DNA from: a virus
Strand: one strand, 5' to 3'
DNA length: 31,938 nt
Virus record (IMG/VR): IMGVR_UViG_3300038563_000004
Coordinates: 1-31,938 of that record
The notes under the pieces were generated by a model. It did not search any database. It worked only from the letters and a program-made list of their open reading frames with translations, and was not told the DNA's origin. A program made the translations under genes and the position numbers. This document shows, one piece after another, positions 12,319-31,240 of this stretch; within the stretch, counting starts at the first letter, position 1; each line of letters starts with the position of its first letter.

Positions 12319-12825
12319 TTACTCAGCAGCAGTTTCTGCTACTTCGCCGACCTGGATGCTGATGAAGCCATGAGCGACGTCGTGGTGGAAATCACCAGTG
12401 GTCAGACCAGCGGCAAGCGCTTCTGCCACAGTTTGACCCGAGGCATAGGCCGCAAAGCGGGCATGGGACGCCGAGCCTTCGCGCTTGGGGTTGGCGGCTG
12501 CCAGTAGGGTGATGACGGCGGTGGCAGGGTACTTGTCGCCACGGCCTTCGCGCTCGGCTTTCGGCGCTTTGTAGGCAGTTTCTTTCGGGCCAAGGACAGG
12601 GCTGCCATCTTCGTTCAGGGCAGGGGTGCCGTCTTCGTTGGCTTGTGGGTATTGTTTCGGCGCCTTGGGCTCTTTAGGGGCTTTTGGCTCCTTGGCAGCT
12701 TTCTCAGGCTTTACAGCAGCACCGCCGTCCAGGGATTTCTTGACGCGCTCTTTCTTCGGAGCAGGAACGTCACAGGCTGCGGTGGCAGCAGCGGCTTCGG
12801 CCAAGAGGGTATCTACGTCAGTCAT
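12319..12825 (-). CDS. Lys/Pro/Ala-rich protein, possible DNA-binding (histone-like)
   Basis: A 168-residue protein with three parts: an acidic/Ala-rich N-terminus (MTDVDTLLAEAAAATAA), a basic low-complexity linker with repeats of EPKAPK at about 50-60, and a compact C-terminal domain with NPKREGSASHARFAAYASGQ, then TVAEALAAGLTTGDFHHDVA. The C-terminal module recurs in phage small proteins and looks like a helix-turn-helix-sized domain; the basic linker would favour nucleic-acid contact. Start is ATG 12825 with AAAGG upstream; a GTG nine bases earlier is unlikely. Private promoter and terminator suggest high expression. A chromatin- or regulator-type role is inferred, with no enzymatic motif seen. 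Confidence 0.65.
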   Translation of the reverse strand: MTDVDTLLAEAAAATAACDVPAPKKERVKKSLDGGAAVKPEKAAKEPKAPKEPKAPKQYPQANEDGTPALNEDGSPVLGPKETAYKAPKAEREGRGDKYPATAVITLLAAANPKREGSASHARFAAYASGQTVAEALAAGLTTGDFHHDVAHGFISIQVGEVAETAAE

Positions 12826-12870
12826 TTTGAGCACCTTTCAGTTGATGGGTATTGCTTCTTAGGAGGTAGT

Positions 12871-26108: not shown

Positions 26109-28286
26109 ATGTCCACCAGTGCATTTCTAAAGACAGGCATAACCTTCCTGTCCGAAGCCTCTGAGTACCTAGACTCTCGGGGCTTGACCATCCAAGATCT
26201 ACCAATCGAACCATACCGCAACGTCAACATCGGCTTCCATAGGAAGGTCGGTGCGGACCAGTATGCGCCCCATCTGCTAGAGGGTTGGGCCTTTAAGATA
26301 CGTGGCCCAGACGGAGATTACTACAGCGACCGTGTACTCCTCCGGCCATGTAACTGGGACCATAACGCTGAGTACTATCAAAAGCGCAATAAGATCTATG
26401 TGCGGGTAGAGAAGCCGCCTAAGTTCGTACAGGTGAGCGACAAAGGCGCTGACTGCATCAACTATATATCTACTGTGACAGAGCTGTGCCACGCCCCCAT
26501 CGTTATGTTCCACGAGAAGTTTACATCGGCGGCGTTGGCCACCAACCTGACTCATATACCCTCTATTGCGTTATCAGGCTGTACTAACTTCAGCCAGGAC
26601 AAGCGCCTTAAAGACTCTCTTAGCAATATGATCAAGTGCATGCAGCCGAGCGCTAAGATCGTAGTGTGCTTTGATGGGGACCTAATAGAAAACCCGAATG
26701 TAATGAATGCTGCTAGTCAACTCAAGGGGTGGATTCATGCAATTAGGCCAGATATCACCTGCACCTTTCCCAATGTCCCCACGATGGTGGACGGACGTAA
26801 CGGTTGGGACGATTGGCTCGTTGACCAAGCGGAGTTCGCTAGATCACACTTTCTTGCCCTCATGGAAGATTCAGGCGTTGATGTCACAACAGCTCTACCA
26901 ATTGCCCACCTTATCGCAAAGTACCAAGTCAAAGTTAAGGTCACCAAAGACCGTATACTCATCGAACAGACCGCCGCCAACTATCGAAGACTTCTACATC
27001 ACCCCAACTGGGAGAATTATGTGCAGGACGTTGGAGGAGCTATCTATAACCGCGAGGACATTGGAGCAGGTGCAGAGACTATGGACTCGTTCGCCATGCG
27101 CTACGAAACTTGGCTCGCAGACGCCGTCTTCATTGGTGAAGGAGCCGGAGTACGGAGCGCTCAGGTCAAACAAGCCTGCAAGTTAGAGCTGAAGGAACGT
27201 ATAATATCCATACCGCTGTTATTGCTTAGCCAGCAGCCGCCCATTACCCACGCGCAGGCGCAGGCAGCAGCCAGCCGCATGTTCACAGAGGGCTTGCGCA
27301 GCATTGGCCCCATGACCATGGACGAAACTGTAGAAACTATGATTCGTTGCGCTCGGGACATGGTCGCATTGTGGTCAGCTGATGCTTCGGTGGACATCCA
27401 ATGGGTACTAGCCCTCGTTGGCCCCAGCGGATGCGGTAAGTCCAACTTTCCCAAGAGCTTTCTACGCTCAATGGAAGCTCTAGGCTATCGGCCCCCCATC
27501 GCCCAGTTGGAGAAGTCAGGACCACGAGCCAGCATGGTTGAGTATGTCCGCCAATGCAGGGACTGTCTGGCAGGCGTGTTTGATGAATATAACCCGGATG
27601 ATAAGAGCGCTAAGCAGGTAGAACAGGACATCTTCACGCTCAGCACTACGCGCATCAGTAACCAACGTAGATCACATGAGGAAGATTCCAGCGAGTGCCT
27701 GCGCCGCGCCTTCCTAATGCTGACCACTGTGGACCAGAACAGGACATATATTCGGTCAGAGAAGGGCGCTGGCGAGCGTCGGTTCATTACCATTGAAGTT
27801 GTTGGCGTCAAAGAGTTCGGGGGTAAGTTGTCTAGCGACCGTGACGTTATTACTGAATGCGCTCTCCCACTCCTTGTATATGGCTATCAGTTATATATGG
27901 AAGGTAATAACGATATGGCTAACGAACACTCGCTTAAATATGTAGACCAATACATCAGCGAACCAACTATCATGGCCAAGATAGCCCGCCGCTGGTCCAA
28001 TGGTGATATCCACGCTAAGCTCGACGAGTTTCGTAAGGTCATATATCGCCCTGGGACCGAAGACTATCGCTTCTCAATGCCAATGCTTATGGAGCAGATG
28101 CTGCCGGAGGAGAATCTAAACCGCCCAGAGAAGGGAGACTTCAGGCATCTGGTTGAAGGGCTTGGCGCTAAGAATATAGGCCAAGCCCGCGTCAACATGA
28201 TGAATGGCAAAGATACAGTTAAGGATACAGTCTACAGCATTAAGGACTTCAACAAGTTCCTCAATGATCTTGTGTCAATGATGTAA
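26109..28286 (+). CDS. Primase-helicase with VapE-type ATPase domain
   Basis: A 725-residue replication protein. The N-terminal half resembles toprim-type primases of the DUF3854 kind, with IVVCFDGDL near residue 186 as the acidic metal motif and DGRNGWDDWL near 226. The C-terminal half is a VapE-like P-loop ATPase: LVGPSGCGKSNF around 436-447 and a Walker B-like GVFDEYNPDD near 493-502. The last 72 residues (from RFSMP, 654-725) form a small module that is also present in the protein encoded at 29646-30188. GAGGAG precedes ATG 26109. It should open and prime the phage origin together with the family A polymerase. Confidence 0.85.
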   Translation: MSTSAFLKTGITFLSEASEYLDSRGLTIQDLPIEPYRNVNIGFHRKVGADQYAPHLLEGWAFKIRGPDGDYYSDRVLLRPCNWDHNAEYYQKRNKIYVRVEKPPKFVQVSDKGADCINYISTVTELCHAPIVMFHEKFTSAALATNLTHIPSIALSGCTNFSQDKRLKDSLSNMIKCMQPSAKIVVCFDGDLIENPNVMNAASQLKGWIHAIRPDITCTFPNVPTMVDGRNGWDDWLVDQAEFARSHFLALMEDSGVDVTTALPIAHLIAKYQVKVKVTKDRILIEQTAANYRRLLHHPNWENYVQDVGGAIYNREDIGAGAETMDSFAMRYETWLADAVFIGEGAGVRSAQVKQACKLELKERIISIPLLLLSQQPPITHAQAQAAASRMFTEGLRSIGPMTMDETVETMIRCARDMVALWSADASVDIQWVLALVGPSGCGKSNFPKSFLRSMEALGYRPPIAQLEKSGPRASMVEYVRQCRDCLAGVFDEYNPDDKSAKQVEQDIFTLSTTRISNQRRSHEEDSSECLRRAFLMLTTVDQNRTYIRSEKGAGERRFITIEVVGVKEFGGKLSSDRDVITECALPLLVYGYQLYMEGNNDMANEHSLKYVDQYISEPTIMAKIARRWSNGDIHAKLDEFRKVIYRPGTEDYRFSMPMLMEQMLPEENLNRPEKGDFRHLVEGLGAKNIGQARVNMMNGKDTVKDTVYSIKDFNKFLNDLVSMM

Positions 28287-28931: not shown

Positions 28932-29366
28932 ATGAAAACCACTACCAAAGCCGCCAAAACCGCACCAGCCGCTAACCTGCCAGCCCCCGTAGCTACCGCA
29001 TTGCTGGCAATGGTAAACGCCCCAGCCGCGTCAGCAGCTACCCCAGCGCCTGCAACTGTACCCGCTGGCCAAGTGGCCTACACCATTGGTGCCAAGGCTG
29101 TAGTTATTAGCGACCGGCTTACCAACCAACGCGGATGCACCGTAGCTCTTAAGGGCACCGCTTGGCTGGAACAGGGCCACAAGGCGCCCAACACTCGGCA
29201 CATCGTTATTAACGTGCTGGCGGCCCTTGGCGGCACCTTTACCCACGCCCAAGCCGTTGCAGCACTGGCCCCACTTAAAGCCGATGCAACACTGGGCAGC
29301 GGTACGCCAGCCAGCTACATCCGCGCCTTTATTAAATGTGGCTACCTTGTCCCTGTAGCCTGCTAA
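28932..29366 (+). CDS. Ala-rich protein with compact C-terminal domain
   Basis: A 144-residue protein. The first 48 residues are Ala/Pro/Lys low complexity (MKTTTKAAKTAPAANLPAPV), after which a compact domain follows: AYTIGAKAVVISDRLTNQRG, HIVINVLAALGGTFTHAQAV and SYIRAFIKCGYLVPV. The end resembles a small winged-helix module, so a DNA-binding protein is plausible. It has its own operator-bearing promoter and a downstream terminator at 29607. Codon use is somewhat GCC/CCC-rich compared with neighbours. Not recognised as a known family. Confidence 0.6.
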   Translation: MKTTTKAAKTAPAANLPAPVATALLAMVNAPAASAATPAPATVPAGQVAYTIGAKAVVISDRLTNQRGCTVALKGTAWLEQGHKAPNTRHIVINVLAALGGTFTHAQAVAALAPLKADATLGSGTPASYIRAFIKCGYLVPVAC

Positions 29367-29606: not shown

Positions 29607-29640
29607 GCCCCAGAGCGTGAAGGCCCTGGGGCTTTTTATT
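29607..29640 (+). terminator. Rho-independent terminator
   Basis: Stem GCCCCAG (29607-29613) / CTGGGGC (29626-29632) with a 12-nt loop and TTTTTATT. It closes the 28932 unit and lies 6 nt before the end of the converging gene at 29646. Confidence 0.85.
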
Positions 29641-29645
29641 ACTGA

Positions 29646-30188
29646 TCATTCCTTGGCCGGCAATAGCCGCAGCATAATAACTTCTATGTTAGCGTTAATA
29701 GCGTCTATGCTGGCTATGCGCAGATCTATTAAGTCTATGGTCTTGCCCACTTGTTCCAACTTGGCCGACAAAGTGTCCAGCTTAGTATCTAGCTGGTTGG
29801 CCTTGCGCTTTACCATGTCCATTAAATCGTCCAACTTTTCCAGCCGGTCTGGTATGGTTGGCTTCGGCTCTTTGGGCGGCTTCGGCTCTTTGGGCTTCCT
29901 CTCCACTATCACAGGGTCCAGCACTATGCCCCGGATAAACGTGTCCCAATCAACCAGCATAACGCTATAGACTGTATCCTTCATTGTGCTGTTAGGCCCT
30001 GTGCGCGCCTTACCTATGCGCTCGGCGCCATGCACTACCAGTTGGTCCCCGATAGCCCGCCAACTAGCCGCGTCTGTCCTACCTATGTTATGGCCGGGTG
30101 ATATAACATCTATAAACTCTGGCGCGCTAAACCGCACGTCACCTGTATAGTCCCTGTAATATTCGTTGCGAAACACTGTAAGATCCAT
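29646..30188 (-). CDS. Primase C-terminal-domain paralogue fused to coiled coil
   Basis: A 180-residue protein. Residues 19-89 (from RFSAPEF to FIRGIV) align with the last 72 residues of the primase-helicase: RFS.P, then P..N..R, GA..IG.AR and KDTVYS match in order. A Lys/Pro/Glu linker (KPKEPKPPKEPKP, about 98-110) leads to a long coiled coil (about 112-175; LEKLDDLMDMVKRKANQLDT). The layout suggests an oligomeric DNA- or replisome-binding adaptor, acting perhaps at the adjacent non-coding region. AGGAGG precedes ATG 30188 and lies in a small hairpin; an extended -10 (TGCTATAAG) lies at 30227-30235 on the minus strand. Confidence 0.7.
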   Translation of the reverse strand: MDLTVFRNEYYRDYTGDVRFSAPEFIDVISPGHNIGRTDAASWRAIGDQLVVHGAERIGKARTGPNSTMKDTVYSVMLVDWDTFIRGIVLDPVIVERKPKEPKPPKEPKPTIPDRLEKLDDLMDMVKRKANQLDTKLDTLSAKLEQVGKTIDLIDLRIASIDAINANIEVIMLRLLPAKE

Positions 30189-30315
30189 TGTAATGTCCTC
30201 CTAAGGACGTGTGTTAGGGTGTAGCGCTTATAGCATAGCCTTGCCAACCCCACTAGAGCAAGCACGCCTTGGCTGCCCTATGGCGGCCCTATGGTGGCTA
30301 AGGGCTAGCCCTATG

Positions 30316-30432
30316 CCTATACCCGCAACCCCTGGAGCTGTATTGTCCCTTTGCATTGGCGGGGCATGGCCAATAGGAATAGCCTATGGTCCATTCCAGG
30401 GGCGTAGGGTTTGGTTGCGGGGTTTGTATAGG
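30316..30432. repeat. Nested imperfect inverted repeat, about 117 nt
   Basis: Paired arms in order: CCTATAC (30316-30322) with GTATAGG (30426-30432); GCAACC (30325-30330) with GGTTGC (30413-30418); CCCCTGGA (30329-30336) with TCCAGGGG (30395-30402); ATTGGC (30355-30360) with GCCAAT (30369-30374). The second and third arms share two bases, so not all can pair at once. The nesting suggests a cruciform or structured RNA. Confidence 0.55.
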
Positions 30433-30637
30433 GGCTAAAACTAAGCTGTAAGCCGCAAGGCGTATGGTGTATAGGGGTTCCAGGGGGTAATATTAGGTGT
30501 TTTGTGTTTAGCGCTAAGTGCATGTGGGGTTTAGGGTTGTTATGGCCACACACACACATGCGCTTTTTACCTATATAAGTTTGCGGCAAAAATACCCCTA
30601 ATTACCCCTATGGCTCGTTAGCTGCGCCCGGCGCCCC

Positions 30638-30667
30638 GCGCCAAGGGCCGCGCCGAGCCCTTGGCGC
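30638..30667. repeat. 10-bp perfect inverted repeat
   Basis: GCGCCAAGGG (30638-30647) and CCCTTGGCGC (30658-30667) flank a 10-nt GC-rich centre. No T-run follows on either strand, so a simple terminator is unlikely. Confidence 0.7.
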
Positions 30668-30910
30668 CACGTTTACAGAGTGATGCCACCCCCTGCCCCT
30701 ACACCGAGCGCCGAGCGCTAAGCGCCTCCAGCCGAGAGCGCATTTCCAATTGGCATGGTCCTTGCATAGCTCTGTGTAGCGAGGTGCTGAGCGCTCGGCT
30801 CGTCGCTCCTTGATGGTGCGCAGAGCGCTAGGCTCGGTCAGAGATGGCGCAGTGGATGTCGCGCTCGGCGCTTAGCCCCCCCGGGGTAGGCGCAAAAAGT
30901 ACGGGGCGTC

Positions 30911-30936
30911 GCGCTCGGCCTCGGGGCGCCGAGCGC
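30911..30936. repeat. 9-bp perfect inverted repeat
   Basis: GCGCTCGGC (30911-30919) and GCCGAGCGC (30928-30936) around 8 nt; followed by AAAATGTG, not a T-run on the plus strand. One of several palindromes built on GCGCT/AGCGC in this region. Confidence 0.7.
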
Positions 30937-31073
30937 AAAATGTGAAAAACAGAAAGTGGTGCCACTTCCCCTAGAGCTGCGCACAAGGCGCTAAGCGCCA
31001 AGCGCTACCCTTGCTAGGGGTGCAGCGCTAACGCGGCGGCAGCATAGGGCGGGAGCGGCCACAGCAGCATTGT

Positions 31074-31100
31074 AGCGCCCAGCGCCCAGCGCCCAGCGCG
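31074..31100. repeat. 7-bp tandem repeat AGCGCCC
   Basis: Three direct copies of AGCGCCC (31074-31094) followed by a partial AGCGCG. Lies 90 nt upstream of the terminase promoter. Such iterons can be binding sites for terminase or an initiator. Confidence 0.7.
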
Positions 31101-31130
31101 AATTTTGTGGGGCTGGCTATTTCCCCAGAG

Positions 31131-31203
31131 AGTGGCACCCACTATGCGCGTTGAGCTGCGCAGCAGAGATTGCTTCCCCAGTTACGATGTGCTATAGTGG
31201 CAC
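31131..31203 (+). promoter_or_regulatory. Terminase promoter with two operator copies
   Basis: TTGCTT (31170-31175), 17-nt spacer, TATAGT (31193-31198) preceded by TGC as extended -10. AGTGGCAC overlaps the -10 end (31196-31203) and a further AGTGGCACC lies upstream at 31131-31139. The string GTGCTATAGTGGCAC (31189-31203) is identical to that at 18467-18481 on the opposite strand. Confidence 0.75.
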
Positions 31204-31240
31204 TTACCTGTATCCATCTCCCGCCATTCTGAGCCACGTC

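Follow-up and report, generated by a model that had tools for sequence, protein, structure and literature searches.

A stand-alone copy of a primase-helicase C-terminal domain, joined to a predicted coiled coil, beside a repeat-rich non-coding region of a phage genome

The stand-alone gene and its homology to the primase-helicase tail

The window, meaning the whole stretch of DNA analysed (31.9 kb out of the 38,905-base IMG/VR virus record designated G000), encodes on its plus strand a primase-helicase of 725 residues (P0002, 26109-28286). Downstream of it lie a conserved small gene (28932-29366, plus strand), which is also present in the related phages G001, G002, G003, G005 and G006, and a hairpin followed by a T tract (29607-29640, plus strand; fold -18.8 kcal/mol, z -3.2) that resembles the terminator in G003 and forms the terminator of the plus-strand genes. 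This small gene, kept in each relative next to the site that varies between the phages, encodes a protein that is Ala-rich at its N-terminus, has a conserved module (TNTRxIVI..LAxLGxTFT..QA...L..LK) at its C-terminus and gave no family match. The terminator lies just past the 3' end of a gene on the minus strand that encodes a protein of 180 residues (P0001, 29646-30188), upstream of which extends approximately 1 kb of repeat-rich non-coding DNA (30189-31240). P0001 has a perfectly matching AGGAGG ribosome-binding site (30197-30202, minus strand) 8-9 nt before its ATG, and its coding score of 0.119 is like that of the other genes of the phage, the remaining five frames being negative.

Homology between P0001 and the primase-helicase covers residues 3-90 of the former and the final ~88 residues of the latter. 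BLASTP places residues 6-89 on residues 641-722 of P0002 (31/87 identical, E 1e-10); the Smith-Waterman score of 119 compares with 31 +/- 4.6 (maximum 61) in 2000 shuffles and with 48 for the next-best open reading frame of the window; and profile comparison of the two domains by hhalign gives a probability of 98.7% (E 2.9e-16, 83 columns). The original prediction, made from this stretch of DNA by itself, had described P0001 as a separate second copy of the helicase-tail domain and had proposed a profile alignment of the two; these results bear it out, and the motifs that it listed as shared (RFS.P, GA..IG.AR and KDTVYS) are all found in both proteins. The primase-helicases of related phages match P0001 as strongly or more so (Smith-Waterman 135 in G003), and thus the similarity is no chance local match. 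Chance is excluded by the shuffles, by the profile comparison and by the occurrence of another copy at the equivalent position in a related phage (L027 7867-8211, minus strand).

P0001 is 37% identical to the helicase of its own genome and 32-39% identical to all of the close helicases, which share 49-79% with each other in this domain. This equidistance rules out a recent duplication within this genome and gives no support to the earlier description of the domain as duplicated; P0001 is instead a copy, either old or acquired, that is gained and lost at a single site. A distance to its own helicase as large as that to the helicases of relatives does not suggest tight co-adaptation. Pfam, PHROGs and NCBIfam contained no credible family match for the domain, and the PDB, searched by sequence, contained no credible match to P0001; weak matches to DUF3450, FlaC and phrog_12015 involved the coiled coil only and were disregarded.

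Predicted architecture of P0001 and of the primase-helicase

P0001 is divided into a winged-helix-like domain (residues 1-91; 29916-30188, minus strand) homologous to the primase-helicase C-terminus, a Lys/Pro linker (residues 92-111; 29856-29915, minus strand; PVIVERKPKEPKPPKEPKPT) and a coiled-coil helix (residues 112-175; 29664-29855, minus strand). AlphaFold2 models the domain with pLDDT mostly of 80-95, except in the loop at residues 31-40, as H3-10, E17-20, H22-29, H40-52, E56-63, E68-77 and H78-90, an arrangement that contains the winged helix-turn-helix (wHTH) element order H1-S1-H2-H3-S2-S3 (wing). Among the top eight Foldseek matches of this model in the PDB, six are winged helices (TFIIE twice, a GntR-type protein, HSF twice and RTP), none of them significant; the best Foldseek E value was 0.23 and the VIA Z score about 3, with winged helices frequent among the weak matches. 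A search of BFVD likewise returned weak matches only, some of them to HTH proteins, primase-polymerases and a VapE protein, and was not used as proof. Nine residues are invariant in the seven copies compared, two stand-alone and five from helicases (R12, R19, G54, A55, G59, R62, K70, D80 and F84 of P0001), four of the nine being Arg or Lys. The net charge of the domain is -3 in P0001 and +8 in the stand-alone copy of G005.

The remainder of P0001 is linker and coiled coil, and no nuclease family of Pfam, PHROGs or NCBIfam, nor any other effector domain, was found in it. AlphaFold2 predicts residues 112-175 as a single helix of 64 residues, in which the 3.5-residue hydrophobic periodicity reaches 12.6, compared with 3.5 in shuffles (none of 5000 as high), and 89% of the a/d positions are Leu, Ile, Val or Met. 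The predicted helix and its heptad pattern support the earlier description of the tail domain as fused to an oligomerizing coil. A linker of similar make-up occurs in the L027 copy. Elsewhere in the window, a minus-strand protein (12319-12834) contains a Lys/Pro/Ala linker (KEPKAPKEPKAPK) closely like that of P0001 (KPKEPKPPKEPKP), followed by a different C-terminal domain.

P0002 appears to combine a toprim-like DUF3854 domain and a VapE/SF3-like ATPase with a Walker A motif (GPSGCGKS, residues 438-445) with the C-terminal domain (residues 636-725; 28014-28283, plus strand). The first two assignments come from profile matches in its relatives (DUF3854, E 1.2e-5; VapE-like, E 3e-4), P0002 itself falling below the cut-off (VapE-like, E 0.006). 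Its tail, modelled separately from an alignment that did not include P0001, is predicted as H634-645, E652-656, H657-664, H672-684, E688-692, E707-711 and H714-724 (pLDDT 60-76, the full-length model having a pLDDT of 42). Structure prediction, the other comparison by which the common origin of the two segments was to be judged, thus gives the same H-E-H-H-E-E-H order on both sides rather than different folds, at low confidence on the helicase side. Between G000 and G001 or G003, the tail with a short stretch before it is the fastest-evolving part of the protein, with 50-54% identity, compared with 77-87% in the toprim-like and ATPase parts.

Distribution among related phages and the adjoining non-coding region

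The same kind of primase-helicase is encoded by five other IMG/VR phages, at 73-75% identity in G001, G002 and G003 and 45% in G005 and G006; no relatives were found among INPHARED phages, in PLSDB (searched with the helicase) or in GTDB contigs. The DNA polymerase of the phage group shows ~35% identity to its counterparts in Pseudoxanthomonas/Stenotrophomonas phages (PW916, Mesyanzhinovviridae), while the primase-helicase has no INPHARED counterpart. The second stand-alone copy (L027 7867-8211), in G005 (IMG/VR 3300030673_000038), shares its strand and its corridor with P0001, with the block of helicase and small genes on one side and the terminase genes on the other. In it the domain is followed by a linker that contains Lys and Pro and by a short stub of heptads whose coil spans only ~15 residues; the copy is intact in two further contigs at 99-100% identity.

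G006 (3300028777_000007) is ~98% identical to G005 in the immediate flanks and 95-96% identical further upstream, and it lacks the stand-alone gene. The difference is a clean allele swap of ~420 bp containing the gene (L027 7871-8289) for ~90 bp containing only a terminator (L028 7758-7848). In L027, the 3' end of the stand-alone gene overlaps a terminator-like hairpin of the plus strand. The gene is also absent from G001 and G002, which look complete on account of their overlapping ends, and from G003, in which the terminator is followed directly by non-coding DNA; no remnants of it were found in the phages that lack it. Present in two of six lines, at the same site in G000 and G005, and absent from the other four, the stand-alone gene is therefore an accessory gene that recurs at one fixed site. 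A single origin of both copies is favoured, weakly, by the tree (support 75/86).

In all members (including L008, L010, L027 and L028), ~0.9-1.5 kb of non-coding DNA separates the helicase corridor from the terminase genes, and each member's region has its own short repeat words, some of which, such as GGTACAC and CTAGCGCC, are nearly absent elsewhere. The words are GGTACAC (seven copies) and CGCCACG (eight) in G005 and G006, AGCGCCTA and CTAGCGCC (seven) in G002, and CCCCTAC (seven) in G001. The G000 region (30189-31219) contains AGCGCYNAGCGC-type and CCCTAT/CCCCTA-type repeats; CATAGGGC and ACCCCTA occur four times each and are absent from the rest of the genome, and CCGAGCGC occurs six times. 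The copy adjoins a repeat-rich non-coding region, in the place where the original prediction had noted a hairpin-rich one. Enrichment is strong in G002, G005 and G006 and modest in G000 and G001, the G003 region being incomplete. Because G006 has its repeats without the stand-alone gene, the repeats are not there for the sake of the gene. A promoter scan gave no signal above chance, and Rfam gave no match.

SaPI Rep and SCCmec Cch2 use the domain at their C-terminus to recognize iterons located in or next to the gene for the helicase, and in SaPIs the origin follows immediately after rep (PMC7581432). P0002 resembles these proteins in that a C-terminal domain follows its predicted ATPase and its gene has non-coding DNA rich in repeats downstream of it, although no sequence match between them and P0002 was found, and although in G000 ~1.9 kb with small genes separates the helicase gene from the candidate origin. 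By this analogy, we take the helicase tail to be a putative origin-reading domain, and the region 30189-31240 with its equivalents to be the candidate replication origin of the group. Cumulative GC skew, which has a minimum at 29.5-30.5 kb and a second near 23.5 kb that is almost as deep, only weakly favours an origin in the neighbourhood of P0001.

Possible roles of the stand-alone protein

We assign a probability of roughly 45% to the reading that P0001 is a free dimeric (or higher-order) copy of the DNA-binding domain of the initiator, attaches to the origin-like region and so limits or tunes initiation; here DNA binding by the domain, the identity of the region as an origin and the negative direction of the effect are what we infer. 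The initiator would be the self-loading toprim and SF3-type primase-helicase, whose C-terminal winged helix probably recognizes repeats downstream of the helicase gene. P0001, made beside the repeats, would form a coiled-coil dimer that lacks the helicase and binds these repeats or similar ones, would limit or time initiation by occupying or bridging ('handcuffing') origin sites, and would likely repress its own promoter, situated in the same non-coding region. The putative recognition helix differs between P0001 and its own helicase, so the binding sites may differ as well. A fast-evolving tail together with phage-specific repeats is what would be expected of a specificity domain with its sites, and the second stand-alone copy at the same site and on the same strand also counts for this reading, as do the homology, the winged-helix-like order in both models, the winged helices among the Foldseek matches, the basic residues among the invariant ones and the SaPI, SCCmec and pIGRK precedents. 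Against it stand the difference in the putative recognition helix, the net charge of the P0001 domain, the absence of significant structural matches to winged helices of known structure, the short coil of the G005 copy, the modest repeat enrichment in G000 and the weak support from GC skew.

A rival reading is a plain transcription regulator, in which the domain has been recruited to repress or activate two divergent promoters within 30189-31240, one for its own gene and one for the terminase operon, with no role in replication. P0001 reads away from the non-coding region with the terminase genes opposite, which is the arrangement of a divergent regulator, and a wHTH joined to a coiled coil is a frequent repressor architecture. 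This is possible, if unlikely: the domain held in common with the initiator would then be a coincidence, and the absence of the gene from four relatives with the same operon layout indicates that the late operon can do without it. The original prediction had the copy acting on the helicase, by recruiting, inhibiting or tethering it. Such a modulator might pack on the primase-helicase or compete for a partner (the hexamer rim, SSB or the polymerase) so as to recruit, tether or poison it; possession of the same domain, multivalency provided by the coil, and net charges near zero, which leave a protein-binding tail possible, speak for this. DNA is nonetheless the likelier target, given that the modelled domain looks like a winged helix and that basic residues make up four of the nine invariant positions. 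Equidistance from all helicases also argues against action on the helicase, as does the DNA binding of the corresponding C-terminal domains in self-loading initiators (PMC7581432); we regard a helicase-directed role as unlikely, although it is, like the transcription regulator, still a live rival.

The presence or absence of the gene between phages with ~98% identical flanks, the variation of the repeats between relatives, the lack of tuning of P0001 to its own helicase and the precedent of Odn of Vibrio phage ICP1, which recognizes the origin of a satellite by means of a RepA domain that it has copied (PMC8263062), would all suit a weapon between elements. Quite improbable is an accessory gene family, combining an origin-reading domain with a coiled coil and swapped at one origin-side site, that supplies a trans-acting origin blocker against co-infecting phages or satellites as an occupancy-type counterpart of Odn. 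That P0001 itself recognizes the origin of a competitor, whether a related phage or a satellite, and prevents this competitor from replicating by occupancy, not cutting, seems very improbable: it has no nuclease or effector domain and no known target, and a fixed site by the phage's own origin-like region better fits a local role. The patchy distribution and the weakly conserved coil length might instead mark a decaying or neutral remnant of a domain duplication, but this is barely credible for a gene with an intact frame, a strong Shine-Dalgarno sequence, native codon usage, a long and clean heptad pattern and intact copies that are 99-100% identical in three assemblies.

The origin-binding reading has parallels, and the principle of a free initiator DNA-binding domain is already known. 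RepR' of pIGRK is a truncated Rep of 180 residues with a predicted wHTH and coiled coil that acts as a dimeric negative regulator and antagonizes full Rep; like R6K pi30.5, it is a shortened initiator with DNA-binding and dimerization parts that opposes the full-length initiator at an iteron origin (PMC6854812). P0001 shares with RepR' its length of 180 residues, a predicted winged-helix-like domain and a predicted coiled coil. Unlike RepR' and pi30.5, which arise in frame from an internal start of the initiator gene, P0001 is the product of a separate, divergent and optional gene on the opposite strand, is 37% identical to an initiator that is a primase-helicase, and has a function that we infer. 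Odn is likewise a phage protein in which a copied origin-reading initiator domain is joined to another module (PMC8263062), but this module is a T5orf172-type nuclease directed against a satellite, whereas P0001 has only a coiled coil and its copied domain matches the phage's own initiator. Cnr of phage P4, likened to P0001 by description, is a small phage-encoded regulator that controls satellite copy number in a replicon with a primase-helicase initiator (alpha) (PMC8628076). To our knowledge, Cnr has not been described as being derived from the tail domain of alpha by copying. The earlier statement that there is no described example therefore goes too far as regards the principle, for which RepR', pi30.5 and Odn are examples, and stands for the exact arrangement, an initiator-tail domain with a coiled coil as a free gene, of which no described phage case was found.

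If P0001 is an origin-binding regulator, this phage group controls initiation by its primase-helicase through a separately encoded copy of the initiator's DNA-reading domain, a strategy known so far from plasmids and, as a weapon, from ICP1, and the stand-alone copy indicates where the replication origin of the group, otherwise unmapped, may lie. Since G005 and G006 are a near-isogenic pair of which only G005 has the gene, its effect can be tested directly.
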